DNA of 64,000 nt from Methanobacteriota archaeon (GTDB lineage: Archaea > JAADCQ01 > Methanopyri > Methanopyrales > Methanopyraceae). Made by a program: the position numbers and the translations under genes. Positions within the stretch are counted from its first letter, which is position 1, and each line of letters starts with the position of its first letter. The stretch lies in assembly GCA_027064425.1 (NCBI GenBank), contig JAMOPO010000003.1:1-64000 (forward strand), written 5' to 3'. Shown here one piece after another: positions 4,761 through 64,000 of the stretch. The notes under the pieces were generated by a model. The model worked only from the letters and a program-made list of their open reading frames with translations, was not told where the DNA came from and searched no databases.

Positions 4761-5180
4761 TTGAACGAGCGCGCCCGAAAGATCGTGCGCGTGAAGGCAC
4801 GGGGAGAGGTCGTTCGCACCCTCTCCGAGGTGGTGGAGGAGGGCCTCGAGATCAGCATCTTAAGCGCCTCGGTGACCCCCGACTCCATCACCGCGGAGCT
4901 GGCCGTCCAGGCGCCCAGCGAGGAGCACGTTCGCGAGTTCTTGCGCACGCTGCGCCGGTTCGGCCTCGAGGTCAAGGAGCTGGAGAAAACCCTGGTCCAC
5001 GATGAAGAAACGTGCGTGCACTGCACGGCCTGCCACTCCGTCTGCCCCACCGGCGCCGTCGTCGTGGAGGACCACGAGGTGTCCCTCGACGAGAGCGAGT
5101 GCATCATGTGCGGCTCCTGCGCGGAGATCTGTCCCACGGGTGCCATCAAGGTGGCCTCCAGGAAGGAGGGTGAAGAATGA
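4761..5180 (+). CDS. NIL-domain 2[4Fe-4S] ferredoxin, homocysteine-synthesis type
   Basis: 139 residues from a TTG start at 4761; an upstream ATG at 4695 lies inside an sRNA candidate, and GAGGTGGGG precedes the TTG. The N-terminal half resembles the NIL domain found at the end of methionine importers; the C-terminal half has two ferredoxin motifs, CVHCTACHSVC and CIMCGSCAEIC. The pairing with a COG1900/DUF39-CBS protein (7201-8700) matches the MA1821/MA1822 type system that makes homocysteine from aspartate semialdehyde in methanogens. The ferredoxin would supply electrons for sulfur incorporation. Its stop overlaps the next start (ATGA). Confidence 0.8.
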   Translation: MNERARKIVRVKARGEVVRTLSEVVEEGLEISILSASVTPDSITAELAVQAPSEEHVREFLRTLRRFGLEVKELEKTLVHDEETCVHCTACHSVCPTGAVVVEDHEVSLDESECIMCGSCAEICPTGAIKVASRKEGEE

Positions 5181-6193
5181 GGTTTTGGGTCGCCCACCCC
5201 GGCCACACCTCCGGCCTGAAGACGCTGCTCTCCGAGATCGAGGACCTGAGCCGCGTGGAGGCCGTGTACGCCGGCGGCTCGCCCGAACGAATCGGCACGG
5301 GCCGCCCCAACCTGCACTACCCGACGATCGAGGAGGTGCGCGAGCAGGTCGAGCTCGCTCACTCGCACGACGTCCTGTACGACGTGGTCGTGAACTCAAC
5401 CTGCCCGCTCCGGGGCGAGCCCACCCGCCGCGTCGTGGAGCGCTACGACGAGTACCTTCGGAAGCTAGAGCGCGCCGGAGTGGACGGGATCGTCGCGGCC
5501 GACCCCCTCGTCCTGGAGCTGGCCGCCGAGTACTTCGACCGGGTGACCGTCTCCTGCCTCGCCTTCGTTAACGATCCAGAGAAGGCGGAGTTCTACGAGG
5601 ACGTCGCCACCGCGATCACCCTCGACACGTCGCACAACCGGCGCTTTGAGACCCTCCGCGCGCTCTCCCGGCTGAGGCTGGAGCTCAAGGTGATAGTCAA
5701 CGAAGGGTGCCTGCTGGACTGCCCCTACCGCCCCTTCCACTTCAACATGTTCTCCCACCTGTACGGGCCCGACGACGTCTCCATTTACGACGATTACTAC
5801 TACCGCCGGTGCATCGCGGACCGCATCCGCCGGCCCGAGCTGATCATCAAGTCACCGTGGATCCGGCCCGAGGACCTCGAGCACTACGAGCCCTACGTGG
5901 ACGCGTTCAAGGTCTCGGGCCGGTCTCACCAGGTCCGGTGGATCGCCAAGGTCGTCAACGCGTACCTGGAGGGCCGATGGGACGGCAACCTGCTCGACAT
6001 CTTGGACTGTCCGCGCGAGCTCCGGGACTACTTTTACCTGGACAATCGGGCCCTGGACGGCGCCATCGAGCGCTGGAAGGAGTGCGACCACCGCTGCCAC
6101 GAGTGCGGGTTCTGCCGGGAGCTGGCGGAGCGAGCCCTGCGCGTGAAGGAGTTCCGGGCGACCGAGACCGCGGTCGCGGGTGAGCGGGCTTGA
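5177..6193 (+). CDS. Peptidase U32-family protein with Fe-S cysteines
   Basis: 338 residues. The U32 hallmark NEGCLLDCPYRPFHFN is in the middle, with C-terminal cysteines CDHRCHECGFC. In characterised members (UbiU/UbiV, TrhP, RlhA) such cysteines bind a 4Fe-4S cluster and the proteins act in oxygen-independent hydroxylation rather than proteolysis, so the protease name is historical. It is translationally coupled to the ferredoxin upstream (ATGA overlap) and to a small gene downstream (TTGA overlap). The ferredoxin coupling suggests a redox reaction. The substrate is unknown. Confidence 0.85.
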   Translation: MRFWVAHPGHTSGLKTLLSEIEDLSRVEAVYAGGSPERIGTGRPNLHYPTIEEVREQVELAHSHDVLYDVVVNSTCPLRGEPTRRVVERYDEYLRKLERAGVDGIVAADPLVLELAAEYFDRVTVSCLAFVNDPEKAEFYEDVATAITLDTSHNRRFETLRALSRLRLELKVIVNEGCLLDCPYRPFHFNMFSHLYGPDDVSIYDDYYYRRCIADRIRRPELIIKSPWIRPEDLEHYEPYVDAFKVSGRSHQVRWIAKVVNAYLEGRWDGNLLDILDCPRELRDYFYLDNRALDGAIERWKECDHRCHECGFCRELAERALRVKEFRATETAVAGERA

Positions 6194-6531
6194 TCGATCG
6201 GTGCGCGGAGTACCTGCGCCGCCTGGAGGAGCGGCTCGAGGACGGCATGGTCATGGAGGTCGACGCGTTCGTGGCCCGGTGCGGCTGCGTTGGGGTTGTC
6301 TTCATGCTCCGTGGGGTCCGCATGGACGACGTCACCGACGGGGCCGTCTCCATCGTCCGGCGCGCGGCCCGGGAGGTCGGGGCTGACCCCGACATCGTGT
6401 ACGCCCGGGTGGTCCCGGGCACGGATCTCGTCATCGACCTGGGCGCGAGGACGCTCTGCGAGACCTGTGAGCGCGAATTCTCCGGCGAGGAGCCCCGGCC
6501 GGACCTCCGGATACTCCGGGGCGGCAAGTGA
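6190..6531 (+). CDS. Small uncharacterised protein between two U32 genes
   Basis: 113 residues from TTG at 6190, overlapping the stop of the U32 gene by the TTGA arrangement, and overlapping the following gene by a few bases, so it is almost certainly part of the operon. It has a CGC pair (residues about 31-33) and a CETC pair near the C-terminus that could form a metal site. No family was recognised. Confidence 0.75.
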   Translation: MIDRCAEYLRRLEERLEDGMVMEVDAFVARCGCVGVVFMLRGVRMDDVTDGAVSIVRRAAREVGADPDIVYARVVPGTDLVIDLGARTLCETCEREFSGEEPRPDLRILRGGK

Positions 6532-7226
6532 TGCGGTGGTACCTCTGCTCCTCTGAACATCAGCTGGAGCACCTACCCGAGGACGCCGACGGGGTGGTCG
6601 TGCCCTACCCGGAGCTCGGGATCTCGACGCTGCTGCCCCGCTGCCCGTCCGAGGCCGAGGCCGAGCGGATGATCCGGGAGGCCTCCGACCGGGGCCTCGA
6701 GGTCCAGGCGCTCGCCGACTTCACGTGCGCGGGCTGCGACCACCTCTCGACCTCGGAGCACGGGACCTTCCGATCCCTTCTCGACTACCTGATCCACGAC
6801 CTGGAGGTGGACGGGATCGTGGTGGCGGACCCGTACGCGGTGGAGCTGGCGTCCGAGCACGACGTGACCGTGGTCGTCTCGCACACCGCCGCCGTGGACA
6901 CGCCGGAGAAGGCCTGGCACTTCGAGCGGCTCGGGGCCGACGTGATCACGCTGGACCCGGCGCTGAACGAGGACGAGAAGGCCGTCAAGCTCGTGCGAGA
7001 GCGCGTCTCAGCCCGACTACGCGCGGCCGTCAACGCGGTGACCTGGCGCGACCCGGCCGCGTACTTCGAGCGGAACCTGCAGTCGCACGCCACCCGGCGG
7101 GGAGAGGCCCTATCCCCCTACCGAAACAACCCGTACGAGCCGCTTCGCGAGCGGAAGGTGGTTGAGGAGGTGCGGGAAGAGCTCTTCGACGAGGTGCTCG
7201 TCATCCTCGGCGGAGAGCCTCCGTGA
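6528..7226 (+). CDS. Degenerate U32-family paralog lacking the cluster cysteines
   Basis: 232 residues; starts at GTG 6528 or the next codon ATG 6531. It aligns by eye with the U32 gene two positions upstream: VDGIVVADPYAVELA against VDGIVAADPLVLELA, the DTPEKA/NDPEKA segment, and VNAVTWRDPAAYFERN against VNEGCLLDCPYRPFHFN. The two cysteines of the hallmark are replaced and the C-terminal Cys cluster is gone. It could be a non-catalytic partner of the full-length protein, as UbiU and UbiV form a pair, although both of those keep cysteines. It converges on and overlaps the COG1900 gene by 26 bases. Confidence 0.75.
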   Translation: MMRWYLCSSEHQLEHLPEDADGVVVPYPELGISTLLPRCPSEAEAERMIREASDRGLEVQALADFTCAGCDHLSTSEHGTFRSLLDYLIHDLEVDGIVVADPYAVELASEHDVTVVVSHTAAVDTPEKAWHFERLGADVITLDPALNEDEKAVKLVRERVSARLRAAVNAVTWRDPAAYFERNLQSHATRRGEALSPYRNNPYEPLRERKVVEEVREELFDEVLVILGGEPP

Positions 7227-8700
7227 TGTCCGTCCGGGTGACGATCCCCACCACCCGGTTCTCCTCGTCCACGACGGGCAGGCAGGAGATGTTGTGCTTG
7301 TTCATACGCTCCAGCGCCTCGTTCACGGTCTCGTGCGGCCGGATCGTGACCACGTCCTTGGTCATGATCTCCTCCAGCTTCTTCTTGCCCTCCGCCACCG
7401 CGGCCGCGATGTCCCAGGAGGTGACGATGCCGACGAGCTTACCCTCCTCGTCCACCACGGGGATGTGGTTGATCTCCTCCTCGATGAGCGTCTTCGCAAC
7501 CTCCTCGATGCTCTCGTCCGGGTGAGCCGTGATCACGTCCTCCGTCATGATCTCCCGGATCTGCGGTAGGTGCGGGGGCCGACTCGGCATCGGCTTGAGC
7601 TCCCGGTCCCGGGGCAGCCGCTCAACCGGCTCCGTGAGCAAGAACTCGCCCTCCTCGATCTCCTCCCGGAGCCGCTCCGCGATCTCCCGAGCCATCTTGT
7701 AGCTCGAGAGAGCGCCCGTCCGCACCTTCCTGCCCTTGATCTCCACCTTACCCGACCGCAGCTCCGCGTAGGTGACCTTGGCCACCACCGGCCGGTCCCG
7801 GGACTGGACGCCGTAGTCCACCACCGGCACCTCGATATCCTCGTCGCTGACCGCCGTTGACTCGGCCACCTTCTCGTCGAGCACCGGGATGGGGACGCCG
7901 ATCCCCACCGCCAGGCTCACGCCGTAGTTCTTCAGGACGACCGGACGCAGGAACTCCGGGTCCGCCTCCTTGAGGTCCCCCTTCACCATCAGGGTGGCCA
8001 TGCCGCTCCTGGGATCGTGCTGCGTGCCCTCCCCGATGATGTACCCGTGCGCTCCCGCCAGCCAGATCCGCGTTCCCACCCCGATCGTGCGGAACTCGGG
8101 GTCGTTGGCGAGCGGGTTCAGCTGGCCCGCGCCGCAGTACGTCACGTTGCCGTACTCTGGGAGGAGCGTGCCCATGTACGTGTACAGGGTCTCCTCGGAC
8201 GAGTTCGTGGCCGCGACGTACCGCTGGTAGCAGTTCCGCGGGTTCACCAGGATCGCCTGGTTCAGGTCCTCGATCGTGATAAGCGTCTCCACGGACTCCC
8301 GCGGGTAGCAGTCCGTCACGGCGCCCTCGGCCCGGAGAACTACCTCCTCGCCGGCCGCCAGCTCGTGGATCACGTGGGCTCCTCCGTACTCGATCCCGCG
8401 GTCCTCGCTCGGCTGGGTCGCGCCCAGGTACGCGTCGACCGCCGCCAGACCCGCGTACGCCTCCACCTCGTTCAACCACACGCGCTGCATCTTGATGGGC
8501 GGGTCCGAGTGCCCGAAGTTCAGGAACACGCCGGAGCTGCACATCGGCCCGAACGTGGCGCACGTGACCACGTCCACCTCCTTGGCCGCCCGCTCCGGCC
8601 CGACGTCCTCCACGATCTCCACCATCTCCTCCGCGGTGACCACGCACGCCTCACCGCGCTTGATCTTCTCGTTGATCTCCCGCACGCTCTTCCGCCGCAA
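7201..8700 (-). CDS. Homocysteine-biosynthesis protein, COG1900/DUF39 plus two CBS domains
   Basis: 499 residues. Residues 1 to about 370 are the DUF39 domain, with conserved features EVDVVTCATFGPMCSSG, NCYQRYVAATN and YCGAGQLNPL; the cysteines are candidates for sulfur handling. Residues about 378-499 hold two CBS motifs (REIMTEDVITAHP and LEEIMTKDVVTIRP), a nucleotide-sensing pair. The domain order matches MA1821/MJ0100-type proteins, which with a NIL-ferredoxin convert aspartate semialdehyde to homocysteine. That ferredoxin is at 4761-5180. The start overlaps the 3' end of thiI by about 50 bases on the same strand; MRRKSVREINEKIKRG is the usual N-terminus, so the overlap appears real. Confidence 0.88.
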   Translation of the reverse strand: MRRKSVREINEKIKRGEACVVTAEEMVEIVEDVGPERAAKEVDVVTCATFGPMCSSGVFLNFGHSDPPIKMQRVWLNEVEAYAGLAAVDAYLGATQPSEDRGIEYGGAHVIHELAAGEEVVLRAEGAVTDCYPRESVETLITIEDLNQAILVNPRNCYQRYVAATNSSEETLYTYMGTLLPEYGNVTYCGAGQLNPLANDPEFRTIGVGTRIWLAGAHGYIIGEGTQHDPRSGMATLMVKGDLKEADPEFLRPVVLKNYGVSLAVGIGVPIPVLDEKVAESTAVSDEDIEVPVVDYGVQSRDRPVVAKVTYAELRSGKVEIKGRKVRTGALSSYKMAREIAERLREEIEEGEFLLTEPVERLPRDRELKPMPSRPPHLPQIREIMTEDVITAHPDESIEEVAKTLIEEEINHIPVVDEEGKLVGIVTSWDIAAAVAEGKKKLEEIMTKDVVTIRPHETVNEALERMNKHNISCLPVVDEENRVVGIVTRTDITEALRRG

Positions 8701-9799
8701 CGCCCGAACCCCGCAGGCCGCGTTGGAGGATGCCCAGCTCCTCCTCCAGCGCCAGCACCTTCCCCAGCCGCGCCCGCTTCACCGGGTTCTTGGGCGCCAG
8801 CTCGCAGGGAGCGTGCTTCCGGGACACCTCGAAGAACCCCAGGCGCTCGGACACCCGCTGCACCTCGTTCTTATCCATGCCCGCGAGCGGCCGGAACACC
8901 GGGAACCGGGCCACCCGGTCGATCACGGCCAGGTTGTCCGGGATCTGGCTCGCCACCTGGCCGATCACGTCCCCGGTGGCGACACCCACTCCACCGACCC
9001 GCTCGCATAAATCGCACGCCCTCCGCAGCATCTCCCGCTTGCAGAGCACGCACCGGTACCGCGCATCCTCTCCCCGCAGCGACGCGAGCGCCTCCATGAA
9101 GTCCTCAAAGTCTTCAACCTCCAGTCGAACCTCGCCCGGAACCCACTCGGAGAACCGCTCCGCCAGCTCCTCCACCACGTCCACCTCCGACCCGAACCTC
9201 CCCCGATCCAGGTGCAGCCAGACCACCTCGCAGCCCCGCCTCGCCACGTACCACGCCGCCACCGGGCTGTCGATCCCGCCCGACACCAGGCACACCACCG
9301 GCGACTGCGACCCGTACGGTAGCCCGCCCGGCCCCTCGCGCACCCACGAGTCCAGGTACACGAAGCTACCCTCGCGGCGCAACTCCACGTGAATCTCCAC
9401 GTCCGGGTCGTCCAGGTCCACGGACCAGCCGGTGAACCGGCGCACCAGGTCCCCCAACTCCACGTTCACCTCCCGGGAGGACGGGGCCCCCTTCCACGCA
9501 CGCCTCGATCGAACCGCGAAGGACTCGGCCCTCACCTCCCGGAGCTCACCCTTCAGCGCCTCGAACACGTCCTCCGGATCGTGCGACTCCACCCGGATCA
9601 CCCGGGCCCACTTCTCGATCCCGAACACCCGACTCAGCGCCTCCGGATCCTCCGGGTCCCGGACCAGCAGCCGGCCCTCCAGCCGCTCCACCTCGCCGCC
9701 CGCCTGCTCCCGCACGTTACGAGCCAACACCCGCTCCATCTCCTCACGGACCCGAGGCGACTTAACGGCCACCTCCGCGTACATCACCAGGTACTCCAC
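8651..9799 (-). CDS. thiI: tRNA 4-thiouridine synthetase ThiI
   Basis: About 382 residues from a GTG at 9799, which gives MEYLVMYAEVAVKS, the expected ThiI N-terminus; the frame could extend 8 codons further to 9823. It has an N-terminal ferredoxin-like/THUMP region and a PP-loop ATP pyrophosphatase SGGIDSPVA. A YRCVLCKREM segment supplies the CXXC pair that replaces the rhodanese cysteine in methanogen ThiI, which uses sulfide directly. It adenylates and thiolates U8 of tRNA. Here U8 must first be made from genomically encoded C8 by CDAT8 (38726-39565), so the two enzymes act in series. Confidence 0.92.
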   Translation of the reverse strand: MEYLVMYAEVAVKSPRVREEMERVLARNVREQAGGEVERLEGRLLVRDPEDPEALSRVFGIEKWARVIRVESHDPEDVFEALKGELREVRAESFAVRSRRAWKGAPSSREVNVELGDLVRRFTGWSVDLDDPDVEIHVELRREGSFVYLDSWVREGPGGLPYGSQSPVVCLVSGGIDSPVAAWYVARRGCEVVWLHLDRGRFGSEVDVVEELAERFSEWVPGEVRLEVEDFEDFMEALASLRGEDARYRCVLCKREMLRRACDLCERVGGVGVATGDVIGQVASQIPDNLAVIDRVARFPVFRPLAGMDKNEVQRVSERLGFFEVSRKHAPCELAPKNPVKRARLGKVLALEEELGILQRGLRGSGVAAEERAGDQREDQAR

Positions 9800-9851
9800 G
9801 CACACCCCCGCCCACCCGACCACCCCGGCCCGGAGTCATGGGGGTTACGGT

Positions 9852-10688
9852 GTGGGCCTGCTCGACTCGCTGTTCGGCGGTGAGGGGCCCGAGAGCGGCG
9901 AGGCGGAGGTAACGGAGGTTCGGGACGAGGTCATCAAGGTCGACCTCGCCGAGGGCCCGGTGTACTTCAAGAATGACAGCATCATCGCGGCTCGGGGCGA
10001 CCTCGAGTTCTCCGCCACCAAGCCCGTCCGCGCGTCCGGCGGCCCCGCAGGATTGTTGGAAAAGATACTCAAGATCAAGCTGCTGGGCCTGCGGCGCTAC
10101 TTCGTCCAGGTGGACGGAACCGGCGTCCTGTACGCGGGCGACGGCGGCAAAGTTCACGTCATGGAGGTTCCCGAGGGCGAGCGCCTGACCGTGAACCAGG
10201 ACCGCCTGCTCTTCACCGACACGCCCGCCGACGTGGCCGCCCAGCTGGACGCCAGCGTCCTGAGCACCGGACTGATCGACCTCGGGTTCGAGGGACCGTG
10301 TCAGGTCGTAGTCACCGCCGAGTGCGACCCGGTGGTCATCGAGGTGGAGGAGCCCGTCCTCGTCGACCCGGAGTGCTTAATCGCGTGGACGGGCGACGTC
10401 ACCTTCGAGGCCACCTGGGAGGGGAGCGCGCTGGACCTGCTGCTGGGGCGCAAGCACGGGGAGGAACTAATGCTCGAGGCGCACGGCACCGGGAAGGTGC
10501 TAGTGGCCCCGTACGACGAGCGGCTCAGAAGGCTCGAGAGGATGGTACGTAGATCGGGTGCGAGGGGACACGGGGGGCACGGCGACGAGGAGGAACCGGA
10601 GGAGGGTGAAGGGTGGGAGGGAGGGGAATCCCCGAGTGACCCCCTGGACCTCGACGCGGATGACCTGTTCGACCTCGACTTTGACTAG
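9852..10688 (+). CDS. AIM24/TIGR00266-family protein with acidic tail
   Basis: 278 residues from GTG at 9852, the first start after divergence from thiI; the longer upstream frame is antisense to thiI. The body resembles the AIM24 (DUF124) beta-rich family (FVQVDGTGVLYAGDGGKVHVMEV, VDPECLIAWTGDV). The last 45 residues are a highly charged tail rich in E, D and G ending LDLDADDLFDLDFD. Family function is poorly defined. A palindrome at 10713-10733 follows the stop and lies between this gene and the converging tRNA-His. Confidence 0.8.
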   Translation: MGLLDSLFGGEGPESGEAEVTEVRDEVIKVDLAEGPVYFKNDSIIAARGDLEFSATKPVRASGGPAGLLEKILKIKLLGLRRYFVQVDGTGVLYAGDGGKVHVMEVPEGERLTVNQDRLLFTDTPADVAAQLDASVLSTGLIDLGFEGPCQVVVTAECDPVVIEVEEPVLVDPECLIAWTGDVTFEATWEGSALDLLLGRKHGEELMLEAHGTGKVLVAPYDERLRRLERMVRRSGARGHGGHGDEEEPEEGEGWEGGESPSDPLDLDADDLFDLDFD

Positions 10689-58175: not shown

Positions 58176-58196
58176 TCGTTATCAACCCCGTAACGA
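58176..58196. repeat. Dispersed palindrome copy 5, between converging genes
   Basis: TCGTTA (58176-58181) and TAACGA (58191-58196), same 21-nt geometry as the other copies, 13 bases after the enolase-like stop and about 25 before the end of the converging exported-protein gene. It is the only noncoding sequence between them. Confidence 0.6.
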
Positions 58197-58220
58197 TTGC
58201 GCGGGGGCGGGTGGGGGGCG

Positions 58221-59693
58221 TTACCGCCGCCGGAGGGCCGGGAGCAGCACCGCGACCAGCGCCAGCGCTGGGAACACCGGCGCCCGCTTCCTCGCCGCGA
58301 GCCCCTTCAGCGTCTCGTACTCGTGCACCCACTCCGGCAGCTTCAGCGACAAATAGTTCGCGATCACCCGGGCCACCTTCTCGACCGCCCCGGGCGCGTC
58401 CAGCAGGCCCCGCCGGACGTAGATGACGTACATGTCACCCGGCGTGTCCAGCTTGTCCGCCGGCAGCCGGTAGATCCGGGTGTTGATGTACACGACCTTT
58501 CGGTGCTCCTTGCCGTCCTGCACGTACGTGTACTTCTCCACCGCCGCCTTCGTCTCCGCGACGAGCTCCCCGGCGAAGTGCCTCAGAATGGCCTCCGGGA
58601 AGTCGTACACGTCGGGCTCGCTGCCCTCGGGCCCCTTCTCCGGGTTACCCTCGAACAGCTTCCGGTCCGTGATCCCCGTCACCGTCAGATAGGGGAACGC
58701 GATGACGTACCGGACGCCCTGGCTGTACAGGTCCTGCATCAGCTTCTTGAACTGCTCGTATCGGATCTCCCAGCGCGACCTCTCCCACTTCTCCGGCCCG
58801 ATCTCCGGGTTCTGGAAGGCGAAGTAGTATGCCTTACCGTGCCTGATGAACGGATTCTTCAGCGCCCAGTCCACCTCGCCCACCGGGATCTTCACGCCCA
58901 GCAGTTCACCGAGCCGCTCCGCCACGCCCCGGAGCGCGTACATGATGTTCGCCTTGTAATCGTCCCAGAACCCGATCCTCAGCGTGCCGAACGCGATCTC
59001 CAGCAGGCCCACCTCCTCCCTGTGCTGCCTCAGGAAGTCCAGCAGGTTCGAGCAACCCTTGAACGGGTCGCCCGGCTCGCCCCGCTGGTTGGGTCCTACC
59101 AGCGGCTTCTGCAGCTCGACCTTGACGTTCTCGAACAGCAGCTCCGGCACGATCCCCAGGCCGTCCTGCCGGTCCCAGGACGTGATACCGAACTGCTCGT
59201 ACACGAATGCGTACTGCGGCACCTTCTCCTCCTCCACCAGGACCTTCTCGATCAGCTCCGGGATCTCGATGCCCTGGTGACCACCGCCCCGGTCCAGGAA
59301 CGCCGGAAGGATCACGACCAGTCCCTTCCTACCGCGGTCCGTGAACCTAGCGGCCTGGCGCAGGGCGTACCCCATCTCCGTCTCCAACGACTCCTCCTCC
59401 ATCGTCACCGTCTCCTGATGGATCACGTACGTCTTACCGCCCTCCAGCGAGACCCTGGTTACGCCCTCCGTCTCGAACTCGCCCGGGTACACTCGGATCT
59501 CGTAGGCCTCACCGAGCGTCACCGACAGGTGCTCCTGCACCTTCTCCGGCAGCTCGTGCGCTTTGTACACCCAGTGCGGGTCGTAGCTACCGTGGTACGG
59601 CAGCACCACCGCGATCCGTAGCTTCTCCTCGTCCGCCAGCGCCGGGCCCGACAGCGCCAACAGGGCCGCGAGCAGCGCGATCACGCTCCTCAT
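58221..59693 (-). CDS. Exported, anchored CbiX-like (class II chelatase) protein
   Basis: 490 residues: signal peptide (RSVIALLAALLALSGPALA), mature domain and C-terminal anchor ARKRAPVFPALALVAVLLPALRRR. The mature start LRIAVVLPYHGSYDPHWVYKAHELPEKV contains an HGSxDPHW element, and GLVVILPAFLDRGGGHQGIEIPELIEKVL follows about 110 residues on. These two resemble the HGS...R and PxFLxxGxHxxxDIP metal-binding histidine motifs of CbiX/SirB cobalt/iron chelatases. A later half without a clear match may be a second diverged domain. It is inferred to handle metal or tetrapyrrole outside the membrane. Promoter and operator candidates lie upstream. Confidence 0.65.
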   Translation of the reverse strand: MRSVIALLAALLALSGPALADEEKLRIAVVLPYHGSYDPHWVYKAHELPEKVQEHLSVTLGEAYEIRVYPGEFETEGVTRVSLEGGKTYVIHQETVTMEEESLETEMGYALRQAARFTDRGRKGLVVILPAFLDRGGGHQGIEIPELIEKVLVEEEKVPQYAFVYEQFGITSWDRQDGLGIVPELLFENVKVELQKPLVGPNQRGEPGDPFKGCSNLLDFLRQHREEVGLLEIAFGTLRIGFWDDYKANIMYALRGVAERLGELLGVKIPVGEVDWALKNPFIRHGKAYYFAFQNPEIGPEKWERSRWEIRYEQFKKLMQDLYSQGVRYVIAFPYLTVTGITDRKLFEGNPEKGPEGSEPDVYDFPEAILRHFAGELVAETKAAVEKYTYVQDGKEHRKVVYINTRIYRLPADKLDTPGDMYVIYVRRGLLDAPGAVEKVARVIANYLSLKLPEWVHEYETLKGLAARKRAPVFPALALVAVLLPALRRR

Positions 59694-59725
59694 CGTACGA
59701 CCCCCACGGTCGGCCCTTCAGAAGC

Positions 59726-59736
59726 TAATAAAAGGT
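59726..59736 (-). promoter_or_regulatory. TATA box of the CbiX-like gene
   Basis: CCTTTTATTAG on the minus strand, centred near 59731, predicts transcription starting about 10 nt before the ATG at 59693. A 16-bp palindrome lies just upstream of it. Confidence 0.55.
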
Positions 59737-59742
59737 TTAGCA

Positions 59743-59764
59743 TTGGTTCACCGCGGTGAACTAA
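59743..59764. promoter_or_regulatory. Palindromic operator candidate upstream of the CbiX-like gene
   Basis: GTTCACCGCGGTGAAC (59746-59761) is a perfect 16-bp palindrome, extended on each side to 22 bp with one mismatch. It sits about 10-30 bp upstream of the TATA box, where archaeal activators or repressors often bind. A metal- or cofactor-responsive regulator would suit the chelatase-like gene, but the factor is unknown. Confidence 0.5.
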
Positions 59765-59773
59765 CGTCAACGC

Positions 59774-59794
59774 CATTTTAGCAACACTAAAGAA
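59774..59794 (-). terminator. Small hairpin after the toroid-protein gene
   Basis: TTTAG and CTAAA around a short loop in an AT-rich patch downstream of the 59.8-61.3 kb gene on the minus strand. It may be a 3'-end signal separating that gene from the CbiX-like one. Confidence 0.25.
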
Positions 59795-59841
59795 AATCTG
59801 AGTAAGTTGGGAAGAAGCAGCGGGCCCGGCCGGCGCCGGCA

Positions 59842-61335
59842 TCACCGACGCCGGAGCCGCGCCAGCGCCAGCCCCGCCACCGTCAGAACGGGCAGCACCG
59901 GGACGATCCCTCTCTTCTTGGGCCTGGGTACGTAGTCCCAGACGTTCCTGGTGAGGCGCTCCAGGAACACCTCCGGGTGGGAGAACGCCACCGCGCAGAG
60001 GGTGGCGGCCCGCTGCGACGAGGCGGTGACGCTCATGAAGTGCTCCCGGTTGGGATACGGGAACGCGGCCAGGTCATCGTACTGCACGCACTCCCGGTAC
60101 AGCCACTCCTGCTCGGTTTCCAGCGTCGCCCCGAGCCGGTTCAGCTCGCTGATAGCCTCCTGGCCCAGCCCCAGCCGGTTGGCCAGGGCCAGCGACGTCA
60201 GCACGAGCGCCGTGTGCACGACGTAGGGGCCTCGCCCCTTCAGCCTGGTGCTGGTGTAGGCCCACCCGACCGCCTTCTTCCCGTCCACCTGCACGACCGA
60301 GGCATCGCTGTACTTGGCCGCCCAGTCCACGATCGCCTTCAGCGCACGGTTGATGCAGTCCGCCAGCCGGCGCTTGTCCAGTCCCACCTCGTCCGCGACC
60401 ATGTACGCGTAGAGCAGTCCCATCGCGATCTGGGCCTCGGAGGGTGGGGCGTACTCGGATCCCATGATCGCCGCGGCCGTCATCTTCCACAGTCCTGCGT
60501 GCTCTCCGGAGGTCTCCTGGTGCCTCTCCAGCCACTCCACCGCCCTCCGGATGGCCTCCTTGAGCTGCTCCACCGTCCGGTCACTCAGCCCGATCAGGTC
60601 CCGGTACAGGTACGCCTCGCACAGGGCCCTCAGCGCCCAACCGGTGTACAGCGGGTCCGGCGTCTTCGACCACGATCGGTTCGCACTGAACCCACCGTCC
60701 TCCAGCTGCTGGTCGAGGAGGAATCGCACGGCGGCCTGCGTGCACTTGGCCACGTCGTACCGTGATGGGCCGAGCGAGACGGTGCGGATGTTCAGCCTTA
60801 GCGCCGGGATCAGCACCTCCGACAGTATCTGGGCCGTCCGGAGCACGTGTCCCCGACCTCCCGGGAACCTCACCTTACCCTCCGTGAGCACCACCTTCCA
60901 GCCCCAGCCACCGTCCGGCTGCTGCAGCGACAGCAGCTTGGCCAGCGCGGTGGTGACCGCGGTTGCCATCCTGGACCGGTACGGCTCCGGCCACCGCTTG
61001 ACGTTCACCTCACCGCTGAGCAGGGCCGCGTAGATCGAGCTGAGCGCGGAGTACGTGCCGTAGATCACCTCACCCGACGTCTCCCACCGCGCGCGCCCGT
61101 ACTTGCCCGTCCAGTAAACGCAGTCCTTCGACGCGTGCAGTCGGATGTGGCCCGGGAGCAGGTAGTGCCTCGGGTCCTGCCTCGACTTCGCCTGCTGGGC
61201 CAGCTTCTCGGCCTCGTCCAGGGCCACCCAGTAGCGCGCGGCCTTGTCGATCACCGGGCCCCAGTCGACCGACGCCGACGCCGGCCACAGCAGGCAGCAC
61301 ACCAGCACCGGCACGGCGACCGCCGACCACCTCAC
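59842..61335 (-). CDS. Exported, anchored alpha/alpha-toroid (prenyltransferase/terpene-cyclase-like) protein
   Basis: About 497 residues from GTG 61335; the frame extends to TTG 61347, but the TATA box at 61361-61368 would start transcription near 61338. Signal peptide (AVAVPVLVCCLLWPASA), then a helical repeat protein with LLSLQQPDGGWGW and LLDQQLEDGGFSANRSW, the QxxDGGW repeat of squalene-cyclase/prenyltransferase toroids, also used in secreted polymer-binding proteins. The C-terminal anchor is PKKRGIVPVLPVLTVAGLALARLRRR, like that of its downstream neighbour. Cyclase activity outside the membrane is unlikely; ligand binding is more plausible. Confidence 0.7.
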   Translation of the reverse strand: MRWSAVAVPVLVCCLLWPASASVDWGPVIDKAARYWVALDEAEKLAQQAKSRQDPRHYLLPGHIRLHASKDCVYWTGKYGRARWETSGEVIYGTYSALSSIYAALLSGEVNVKRWPEPYRSRMATAVTTALAKLLSLQQPDGGWGWKVVLTEGKVRFPGGRGHVLRTAQILSEVLIPALRLNIRTVSLGPSRYDVAKCTQAAVRFLLDQQLEDGGFSANRSWSKTPDPLYTGWALRALCEAYLYRDLIGLSDRTVEQLKEAIRRAVEWLERHQETSGEHAGLWKMTAAAIMGSEYAPPSEAQIAMGLLYAYMVADEVGLDKRRLADCINRALKAIVDWAAKYSDASVVQVDGKKAVGWAYTSTRLKGRGPYVVHTALVLTSLALANRLGLGQEAISELNRLGATLETEQEWLYRECVQYDDLAAFPYPNREHFMSVTASSQRAATLCAVAFSHPEVFLERLTRNVWDYVPRPKKRGIVPVLPVLTVAGLALARLRRR

Positions 61336-61359
61336 GGCCTCGCTCAACCCCCTGCAAAC

Positions 61360-61369
61360 AATATTTAGA
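61360..61369. promoter_or_regulatory. Bidirectional TATA element between the toroid and CobN-like genes
   Basis: AATATTTAG reads as TATA on both strands. The minus-strand start would fall near 61338, just before GTG 61335; the plus-strand start near 61390, before TTG 61404. Confidence 0.5.
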
Positions 61370-61403
61370 CCGCGTTGAGTTCCGCCCGGGGCGATCGGTA
61401 AAC

Positions 61404-64000
61404 TTGGCTGTAAAAGAGTTACGTTCGACTTTACCTCTCGCGGCGTTGGTGACGGCGCTCGCGGTCCTGGTCGGGGCCGCGGACGCCGCCCGGGTGCACG
61501 TGGTGCTGTTCACGAACGCGCCTCTTCCGGGGCTGAAGGAGGCGGAGCGCCAGGCCCACGCGTTCGTCAGCGTCTACCCGATCCCGAGGCAGCCCGAGGA
61601 CGCTTCGAGGATGCCCTGGGATCGGATCGTCCGGGACGTTTCCTCCGCCGATGTCGTGGTGATCGACGCGATGGGTGGCCTCCCTTCGGTCCTGATTCAC
61701 GAGCTCTCGGCCCGGATGGGCGCCCGGACGAGCGACCCCTCAGCGCTCGTGCGGTCGATCGCGCGCCGCGTTCCGGTGGTCATGCTGGTCGCGTCCAAGC
61801 CCGAGCGCTCCGTCGTTGAGATCCGAGGCGGCAGGCTGGCGAGCGTGGCGAGGGCCGGGACCGGCGTCCCGGAGGCGGTGGCCGCTCACGTCTGGCTGTG
61901 CCTGCACTCCGGCGACCCGGCGGCGCTGCTCACCTTCCTGGTCTGGGTGGCGGACCCCAGCTACCCGACCGATCGCGTGGTACCGCCCCGGCGTCTGGGC
62001 CGGGTGATGCTCTCGGTCTACGTGCCAGGGTCGGGGTACAGGTCGCTGGCGATTCGAGTGGATCCGCAGCGGTTCCACCGGTGGCTGCGAGAGCTGGAGC
62101 GCGGCGGCAAGGGCCTCCTGGTCTACGACGTGCGGCTAGCGCGCGAGCTTCCGGGTTGGGTCGTGGACGCGCTCGACTCGGCGGTGCCGCGGATGAGAGA
62201 CCTGCTGGGTGGGCTTCCGGACGACCTCGTGGTGGTCTTCACGCACGGAGTTTACGCGCTGACCCGAGTCCGCGCGGTGGTGGAGGAGCTCACCGACCGG
62301 CTGGATCGGGCGGCGAGGCGGTACGGGGTCAGGGCGGTCGCCGTCTTCTGCGGACTCGGGGTCGTGACGCCGGCTCAGGTCCTGGACGAGCTGCGCGAGC
62401 TGGGCAAGCGCGTGGAGGTAGTGGTCAGCGCCCGGGCCTTCACGCTCAACTTCCCCAGGCCGGCGGAGTACGTGCTGTCCCGGCTGGACGTTCCGCTGGT
62501 GCAGATCGTCTTCCCGTTCTCGAGCGATGAGAGGATGGCGGTCGGCAGGTACGTGAGCGAGCGGTCCGGCCCGCTGCTGGAGTGGACGTACCAGGTCCAG
62601 CTGGGCTCGGAGCGCGAGGGCGGGTTCTGGTTCCGCGTCCTGTGGCTGAACGCGCCCGAGGGGCCGAGGCTTCTCCCGGGTGCGCCGGACGACCTGGCGG
62701 GCCTGGTCGAGCGGCTGCTCAGGCTGAGAAAGCTGCCGAACCGTGACAAGCGGATCGCCCTCGTCGTGTACTGCTACCCGCCGGGACGCTCGGGGCTGGG
62801 GGCCGCGTACCTAGACGTTCCGCGGAGCCTGGTGCGGCTGCTGGCCGCGCTCGCCGGGGCCGGGTTCGACCTGGGCCCCGCGACTCGGTTCTTCTCTCGG
62901 CTATGGGCCCTGTACCGCGAGAGCCCGGAGAAGGCGAGGCTGCTGGAGAAGGCGCTCTCAACGGTCTTCGGGCTGCTCGCCGCCGGAGTGGATCCGCACC
63001 GTCCCGAGCGCTCGGTGGCGCTGCTGGTGAACGTGGGTCCGTGGAGCGGGCCGGAGCTGAGGAGGATCGTGAGCCTGTACCGGGGCGCTCGCGGGGAGTG
63101 GTCCACCGTCGTGGACGGCGTCCCGGTGCGGGTCATCGTTGATCGCGGCCTGATCACCGTGAGGATCGGCGACCTAGAGTTCACGCTGGGCCGCGTCTCA
63201 TCGGATCAGCTGGTGCCGGCCGATCGAGTGAAGGAGTGGTTCCGAGAGGACGTGCTCCGTCGGCTGAAGGCGTACCTGGACCTGGTGCGCGAGTGCAACC
63301 CCGCCGCCTACGAGCGGGCGCGCCGAGCCATTGAGGGCATGCTGAGGGCCTTCCGAGAGACCTGGGGTCCGGCCACCTCCAACCGCGGGCTGATGATCTG
63401 CGACGGGCACTACCTGGTCCCGGCCCTGGTGATAGGGAAGGTTGCGATCGTGCTGCAGCCGCCCCGGGGCTGGTCCGCCACCTCCACCGTCTACCACTCC
63501 CGAACCCTGCCACCGCACTGGCAGTACATCGCCGCGTACGAGTGGATACGGCGCGTGTTCCGGGCGGACGCGGTGGTTTACGTGGGCACCCACGGCACGT
63601 TCGAGTTCCTGCCCGGGCACGACCGCGGCCTGACGGTCACGGACTGGACGCACCTCCTCCTGCCCGACGTCCCGCAGGCCTACTTCTACATCGTCAGCAA
63701 TCCCGGCGAGGCCCTCCTGGCCAAGTACCGGGCGGGAGCCGTGCTGCTGACGTACCCCTCCCCGCCCACCGGGTACTTCCGGGACTACCGGCGGTACGCG
63801 GAGCTGGAGCGGCTCTGGTCCGAGTACGTTGCGTCCTCGGCCTACGGAGGATATCCGGCCGTCCAGCGTGAGATCCTGAGGAAGATCGTTGAGGAGGCCC
63901 GGAGGCTCGGGCTGCTGGACGAGATCGTGCGCGCGATCTTCCGGGAGCGCGGGCAGGCCCCACCGCCGGATCCGGTTCGGTGGGCGATGGAGCACCCGGA
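61404..64000 (+). CDS. Exported CobN/BchH-like chelatase homolog (3' end beyond the window)
   Basis: 865 codons without a stop, running off the window; starts TTG 61404 (alternatives TTG 61446, GTG 61449). Signal peptide KELRSTLPLAALVTALAVLVGAADA, then CobN-family features: APxPG-like loops early, NVGPWSGPELRRIVSLYRGA, and near residue 715 the diagnostic VGTHGTFEFLPGHDRGL followed by AYFYIVSNPGEALLAKYRAGAVLLTYPSPP. CobN/BchH proteins insert cobalt or magnesium into tetrapyrroles as large subunits of ATP-dependent chelatases. An exported copy has no access to cytoplasmic ATPase subunits, so metal or tetrapyrrole binding at the surface is more likely. Confidence 0.8.
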   Translation, partial: MAVKELRSTLPLAALVTALAVLVGAADAARVHVVLFTNAPLPGLKEAERQAHAFVSVYPIPRQPEDASRMPWDRIVRDVSSADVVVIDAMGGLPSVLIHELSARMGARTSDPSALVRSIARRVPVVMLVASKPERSVVEIRGGRLASVARAGTGVPEAVAAHVWLCLHSGDPAALLTFLVWVADPSYPTDRVVPPRRLGRVMLSVYVPGSGYRSLAIRVDPQRFHRWLRELERGGKGLLVYDVRLARELPGWVVDALDSAVPRMRDLLGGLPDDLVVVFTHGVYALTRVRAVVEELTDRLDRAARRYGVRAVAVFCGLGVVTPAQVLDELRELGKRVEVVVSARAFTLNFPRPAEYVLSRLDVPLVQIVFPFSSDERMAVGRYVSERSGPLLEWTYQVQLGSEREGGFWFRVLWLNAPEGPRLLPGAPDDLAGLVERLLRLRKLPNRDKRIALVVYCYPPGRSGLGAAYLDVPRSLVRLLAALAGAGFDLGPATRFFSRLWALYRESPEKARLLEKALSTVFGLLAAGVDPHRPERSVALLVNVGPWSGPELRRIVSLYRGARGEWSTVVDGVPVRVIVDRGLITVRIGDLEFTLGRVSSDQLVPADRVKEWFREDVLRRLKAYLDLVRECNPAAYERARRAIEGMLRAFRETWGPATSNRGLMICDGHYLVPALVIGKVAIVLQPPRGWSATSTVYHSRTLPPHWQYIAAYEWIRRVFRADAVVYVGTHGTFEFLPGHDRGLTVTDWTHLLLPDVPQAYFYIVSNPGEALLAKYRAGAVLLTYPSPPTGYFRDYRRYAELERLWSEYVASSAYGGYPAVQREILRKIVEEARRLGLLDEIVRAIFRERGQAPPPDPVRWAMEHP

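Follow-up and report, generated by a model that had tools for sequence, protein, structure and literature searches.

Why would a methanogenic archaeon export proteins that resemble tetrapyrrole chelatases, and what would they do outside the cell? The question is raised by the end of a 64,000-nucleotide stretch of a Methanopyri genome (G000, 1.54 Mb; contig C3, positions 1 to 64,000), which we call the window. The original prediction placed an exported toroid protein there between a CbiX-like and a CobN-like protein, both with signal peptides, and proposed a new extracytoplasmic system for metals or tetrapyrroles. We compared the locus among five Methanopyri genomes, G000 to G004, of which G001 is complete, G002 has 1,694,969 bases and G004 is a fragmented assembly. 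Our literature search for open papers describing these Methanopyrus loci found none.

A locus of three exported proteins

Three open reading frames with coding-type composition and orthologues make up the locus (Table 1). The CobN-like gene runs past the end of the window and stops at 66806; the whole gene is L002, 4405-9807. The toroid and CobN-like genes start divergently, and the region between them holds an AT-rich, TATA-like stretch (aaacaatatttaga); the promoter scan of this region used a sigma-70 model, which does not cover archaeal promoters. The predicted arrangement held up, and the three-gene locus is conserved in G000, G001 and G002. In G003, the CbiX-like and toroid genes lie together on another contig. 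All three proteins have hydrophobic N termini of signal-peptide character and hydrophobic C termini, as judged by hydropathy and inspection. These features are kept in the orthologues and bear out the predicted signal peptides. In G001 the A-locus toroid and CobN-A, as we call the CobN-like protein of this locus, are both intact. In G002 the toroid frame is interrupted (L041, 10010-11381), and CobN-A is without its N terminus in the called frame (4794-9530).

Table 1. Positions of genes and motifs of the locus, numbered from the first letter of the window
Feature	Position	Strand	Basis
CbiX-like exported protein, 490 aa	58221..59693	-	ORF, orthologues, profile A1
HGS element, His34; aligns with the CfbA GHGS histidine	59586..59594	-	invariant in 3 orthologues; alignment
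LPAFLxRGGxHQxxEIPE element, residues 124-156, His139; aligns with CfbA VVPVFLAHGVHTKRDIP	59226..59324	-	sub-threshold PF01903 match; orthologue alignment
Exported alpha/alpha-toroid protein, 501 aa	59842..61347	-	ORF, profile matches, AF2 model
Upstream region common to the divergent toroid and CobN-like genes, 56 bp	61348..61403		sequence
Exported CobN-family protein, 1800 aa overall	61404..64000, on to 66806	+	ORF, PF02514
GTHGTFEFLPG, chelatase-superfamily active-site motif; His730 is the equivalent of HmuS His-538	63585..63617	+	motif alignment

Judged by its sequence, the CobN-like protein is a full-length, exported and membrane-anchored member of the CobN family. It matches positions 88 to 1089 of the 1090 in PF02514 (E=3.7e-157), and a signal peptide, this domain, a C-terminal CHHTSPNP motif, a low-complexity stalk and a transmembrane anchor follow one another along the chain. 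A sequence search of solved structures gave strong matches to CobN (7c6o), ChlH and HmuS (9d26); the protein is about equally near to CobN and ChlH and somewhat less near to HmuS. It falls under the NCBIfam CobN cut-off (312 versus 822 bits). At the place of the second-site motif of HmuS, LSLDHxxEFMGG (His-1209), it reads VNDYYSWAGG. The head/neck part of the protein, where HmuS has its heme-binding Met-79 and His-254 and a methionine-rich insertion, has diverged too far for a confident alignment with HmuS.

The CbiX-like protein consists of a signal peptide (MRSVIALLAALLALSGPALA), a putatively two-lobed alpha/beta body and a C-terminal APVFP-hydrophobic-RRR tail. Its orthologues in G001 and G002 are 66 to 67% identical. 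A profile (A1) found a single copy in each of four genomes: G000, G001 and G002 have it at locus A, and G003 has it beside a toroid. The same profile found no copy in the fragmented G004 assembly or in 39 archaeal genomes outside Methanopyri. The Pfam CbiX match (PF01903) is below threshold (E=0.0068, 17.1 bits versus a cut-off of 22). Its AF2 model is of low quality (pLDDT 55, pTM 0.56), and Foldseek searches with that model gave similarly weak matches to PBP-I and ferrochelatase folds (TM 0.35/0.45), none with E below 0.001. HHalign comparisons of the profile with CfbA and with the CobN N-terminal region gave no significant alignment, and a search of solved-structure sequences with the profile returned nothing.

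The N-terminal half, however, carries HGS, LPAFxxxGGxHQxxEIPE and E-P/Q-FG elements that follow one another as they do in the organism's own CfbA, and neither histidine varies among the orthologues. The G002 orthologue (L041) scores 65 against CfbA, where the null distribution averages 30 (sd 5); none of 20,000 shuffles reached 65, and it outranked all 274 other proteins tested against CfbA. The window copy aligns more weakly (p=0.006; 6 of the 274 proteins score as high). We consider the CbiX-like protein a probable divergent class II chelatase, going by these ordered motifs. Of the two chelatase folds originally named, the CobN-like one thus stands firmly on its PF02514 match, and the CbiX-like one is the weaker, with a sub-cut-off Pfam match and a poor model set against the ordered CfbA motifs.

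The toroid protein has QxxDGGW/QLEDGGF repeats and a C-terminal VPVLP-hydrophobic-RRR tail. By sequence, this protein and its paralogues are matched by models of squalene-cyclase type, and terpene-cyclase models score best. Its AF2 model (pLDDT 64, pTM 0.67, core above 90) matches drimenyl diphosphate synthase, C3d/TED and GH76 structures at similar moderate Foldseek scores, and PL10 toroids as well. The alpha/alpha-toroid fold is secure.

Of 42 proteins whose N terminus is hydrophobic, 13 end in a VPVxP-hydrophobic-RRR tail, whereas 0 of 148 other proteins do. Bearers of the tail include toroids, CbiX-like proteins and other exported proteins (such as the window toroid; L018, 6538-8283; L019, 10223-11632). 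Each Methanopyri genome also has an exosortase-like match, and the protein in G000 (L172, 1441-1926) scores 41 bits against TIGR04178 (cut-off 23). Tail and exosortase-like protein together suggest a putative archaeosortase anchoring signal; the toroids gave no match when scanned with NCBIfam sorting-signal models.

Five exported CobN loci, each with a toroid

Further exported CobN-like genes, which the original prediction had proposed to look for, do exist. A PF02514 search found five exported-type CobN loci in Methanopyri (A, the window locus, and B to E), plus one intact and one split cytosolic copy. An exported toroid adjoins every exported CobN locus. With a 16-toroid profile, exactly five toroids were found in G001, whose exported CobN genes, also five, have one toroid neighbour each. 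These five pairs recur in G002, which gave one additional weak partial match, and G000 has additional toroid-like fragments on the small contigs C9, C10, C11 and C55. No toroid was found with this profile in 17 archaeal genomes outside Methanopyri. Toroid and CobN genes are divergent over short intergenic regions at loci A, B and D, and at locus D a 469-aa exported protein is encoded between them. At loci C and E the two genes are co-directional, with a spacing of 13 to 20 bp in G000 (C) and G002 (E) and a 4-bp overlap in the C-type pair of G004. Exported relatives of CobN are already known from gut bacteria, where they serve in scavenging iron from heme; the paired design of exported CobN and toroid looks new.

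The GTHG histidine is retained in modules A to D. In the E paralogues it is replaced by arginine (GSRGN/GGRGR; L020, 6108-12200; L040, 3770-9604; L045, 3357-9185). With the first HmuS histidine lost, the E module may only bind; HmuS chemistry is thus closed to one or more of the modules. The E-type CobN gene is split across two frames in G000 and intact in G001 and G002.

Other genes near these loci deserve mention. Further exported proteins of no clear family adjoin the modules (L017, 4168-6060; L018, 3551-6436 and 16426-18090; L019, 10223-11632). Some of these carry coiled-coil stalks, and they may be additional module components. The second cytosolic CobN copy is broken into halves that lie head to head on opposite strands (L021, 6883-8241 on the minus and 8210-10282 on the plus strand; G000, contig C26) and adjoins a gene run resembling the mtr operon. 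This arrangement recurs in G001 to G003, and G004 has at least the N-terminal half. The intact cytosolic CobN adjoins a large exported multi-transmembrane protein of 863 aa with no Pfam match (L022, 3391-5982).

We then placed these proteins among 61 CobN-family sequences in a tree, a quick LG+G4 search with no inferred root and uneven composition. Exported and cytosolic labels require 2 changes on this tree, compared with 17.6 in shuffles, and one of the 2 depends on L091, whose hydropathy lies right at the threshold. The window protein is on the exported side. Methanopyri A and B fall into one group with exported proteins of Methanobacteriales (SH-aLRT 99), and C, D and E form a separate deep branch. 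Of 18 exported members, 16 share a C-terminal CHH/CC..C.N motif, which is also present in 2 of 58 cytosolic ones. It takes the form TCCHHTCGNP in most archaea, TCHHTSPNP in the window protein and CCDHTCNN in a Trichlorobacter CobN protein; a pattern search did not find it in two HmuS sequences. The GTHG motif is kept in 17 of the 18 exported members.

The original prediction also took CobN and CbiX to be known only from the cytoplasm, and this claim is not supported. The membrane-bound HmuS of Bacteroides de-chelates heme, taking out the iron at the periplasmic face, and H538A abolishes its turnover (PMC12583661). P. gingivalis HmuS behaves as periplasm-facing in E. coli (PMC13227078), a periplasm-facing position is predicted for BtuS1/2 of B. 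fragilis (PMC6460266), and CbiK-P of Desulfovibrio vulgaris is a periplasmic class II cobaltochelatase, as cited in PMC4063343. Large CobN homologues whose termini are hydrophobic occur commonly among Methanobacteriales, Methanosarcinales, ANME-2, Archaeoglobales and Deltaproteobacteria, and many archaeal CobN/HmuS-like homologues are of unclear use (PMC12583661). The proposed extracytoplasmic system therefore keeps its chelatase-family and toroid proteins with export signals, but exported CobN as such is not new.

A candidate energising cassette is also present. DUF2162 and ExbB are each single-copy in all five Methanopyri genomes, and DUF2149 was confirmed beside them in G000 (L082, 6373-8552) and G002. 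The Methanopyri DUF2162-ExbB cassette adjoins no exported CobN gene. Across the wider set, 6 of 16 exported CobN loci have DUF2162 and ExbB in the flanking sequence retrieved for them, compared with 0 of 56 cytosolic loci (Fisher p=5e-5). In annotated hmu operons, hmuS is followed by an ExbB-DUF2149 pair, an order also described in the literature (PMC10434189). Plasmid pSZ77 of Trichlorobacter lovleyi has a DUF2162-ExbB-DUF2149-CobN cluster among TonB receptors, near the cobamide lower-ligand gene bzaF (cluster context, PMC3403914), and Runella has an ExbB-DUF2149-CobN set surrounded by hyp genes, with a weak match to a NicO-type transporter. The idea that HmuT is DUF2162 was not confirmed, as HmuT of Prevotella and Bacteroides (two hmu operons) was not recognised as DUF2162. 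A PF01078 search for AAA+ partners matched many ATPases and was uninformative.

What the modules may do

We suggest that the locus encodes a membrane-anchored receptor module of (de)chelatase type for metal-tetrapyrroles or metals, and we put the probability of this whole reading at roughly 0.55. The window locus would be one of five paralogous extracytoplasmic CobN-family modules. In this scenario, the large protein, an exported CobN homologue of the BtuS/HmuS class, would have as its extracellular ligand either a metal-tetrapyrrole of the corrinoid, F430 or heme type or a metal complex resembling a tetrapyrrole, and the conserved GTHG histidine may handle the bound metal. The adjacent toroid would most likely be a dedicated binding or docking partner, and it probably belongs to none of the known classes of toroid enzymes; we prefer a binding role since the protein it is paired with always has a chelatase fold. 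At locus A only, the class II chelatase-like protein, putatively two-lobed, could join the module as another subunit that handles ligand or metal. Energy for release, or for uptake across the membrane, would probably come from the one DUF2162-ExbB-DUF2149 cassette, which is encoded elsewhere. What our data show is the family, the exported-type termini, the pairing of the genes, the place on the exported side of the tree and the presence of the cassette; the ligand, the reaction, the roles of the partners and the energising are inferred, as the original prediction itself said of the metal role.

Metal insertion by known class I chelatases requires cytosolic ATP-dependent partners. Because there is no ATP outside the cell for insertion of the CobNST/ChlHID type, binding or removal of metal is the likelier activity. 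As to the metal, one hydrogenotrophic methanogen reaches high levels of a 'CobN1' only when nickel is limiting (PMC12350162); if that protein is an exported paralogue, it would point to nickel as a candidate ligand metal. M. barkeri BtuS proteins, possible counterparts of the exported paralogues, respond to the Fe/S source (PMC10846266).

A bolder version of the receptor reading is a three-part extracellular system for metallocofactor capture. CobN, a transcobalamin-like toroid and, at one locus, the class II subunit would act together at the cell surface, where nickel or cobalt tetrapyrroles would be bound and (de)metallated, and each of the five modules would be tuned to its own ligand. We regard this version as unlikely. 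Transcobalamin has a barrel related to alpha/alpha toroids; it is not among the 50 Foldseek matches listed for our toroid model, and a transcobalamin-like role is only a guess.

It is also improbable that exported CobN and toroid were recruited as structural or adhesive surface proteins, such as S-layer or pseudomurein scaffolds, with no handling of metals or tetrapyrroles. The proteins are very large and fast-diverging, with low-complexity stalks and membrane anchors, the E paralogues are without the active-site histidine, and exported CobN genes of other methanogens frequently adjoin other large exported proteins. Yet mere scaffolds sit poorly with the GTHG motif kept in A to D and in nearly all exported relatives, with the strict one-to-one toroid pairing, with the ExbB-type cassette, and with the published nickel or iron regulation in other methanogens.

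The toroid could instead be a cell-envelope enzyme, glycosidase/lyase- or cyclase-like and acting on pseudomurein, glycans or lipids, that CobN anchors or regulates. The GH76 and PL10 matches and the best-scoring terpene-cyclase models would agree with such an enzyme. However, neither DxDD nor thioester motifs were found in any of the 16 toroids searched, all toroid classes match at a similarly low strength, and the partner is always of the chelatase fold, so we hold this to be quite unlikely. A true metal-inserting chelatase for cofactor biosynthesis outside the cell is very unlikely despite the CobN/ChlH homology and a CbiX-like neighbour with both metal-ligand histidines, since the ATP-dependent class I partners are not available there and G000 is already equipped with CfbA and with an intact CobN (L022) in the cytosol.

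If the receptor reading is right, the paired modules could explain how hyperthermophilic methane-making archaea gather scarce metals or metal cofactors. Should they capture nickel or cobalt cofactors, they would offer methanogens a route to metals that limit methane production. The separation of exported from cytosolic members, the C-terminal motif of the exported ones, the ExbB-type cassette and the one-to-one toroids of Methanopyri make the use of archaeal CobN/HmuS-like proteins testable.

Comparison with known systems

Squalene-hopene cyclase, C3d/TED and GH76 share the toroid fold and the QxxDGxW repeats with the Methanopyri toroids, which differ in having neither a catalytic DxDD nor a thioester and in being paired with chelatase-like proteins. 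The CbiX-like protein resembles CbiX/CfbA and CbiK-P in that HGS and FLxxGxH elements follow in order and both histidines are present, and CbiK-P is an extracytoplasmic precedent. It differs in its 490-aa, putatively two-lobed form, weak overall similarity and membrane-anchoring tail, and so far in being confined to Methanopyri.

Cytosolic CobN and ChlH have the domain and active-site motif of the exported proteins; they have no export signal or anchor, fall on the other side of the tree and are mostly without the C-terminal motif typical of the exported class. The clusters of exported CobN with DUF2162-ExbB-DUF2149 in Methanosarcinales, Methanobacteriales and on Trichlorobacter pSZ77 share the tree side and the accessory families. 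In those clusters, however, the cassette adjoins CobN, and no toroid or CbiX-like partner was found there.

HmuS and BtuS share with the window protein a signal peptide, a C-terminal transmembrane anchor, a full CobN-Mg_chel domain and the GTHG motif. The ExbB (HmuU) and DUF2149 (HmuV) partners of the Hmu system also have counterparts in the Methanopyri genome, although here the cassette lies outside the CobN operon. The HmuY hemophore and the TonB receptor HmuR would not be expected in a single-membrane archaeon. Unlike HmuS, the window protein does not keep the second-site histidine motif, it carries the archaeal CHH/CC..C.N motif that the two HmuS sequences examined do not have, and the Methanopyri proteins have one toroid partner each.
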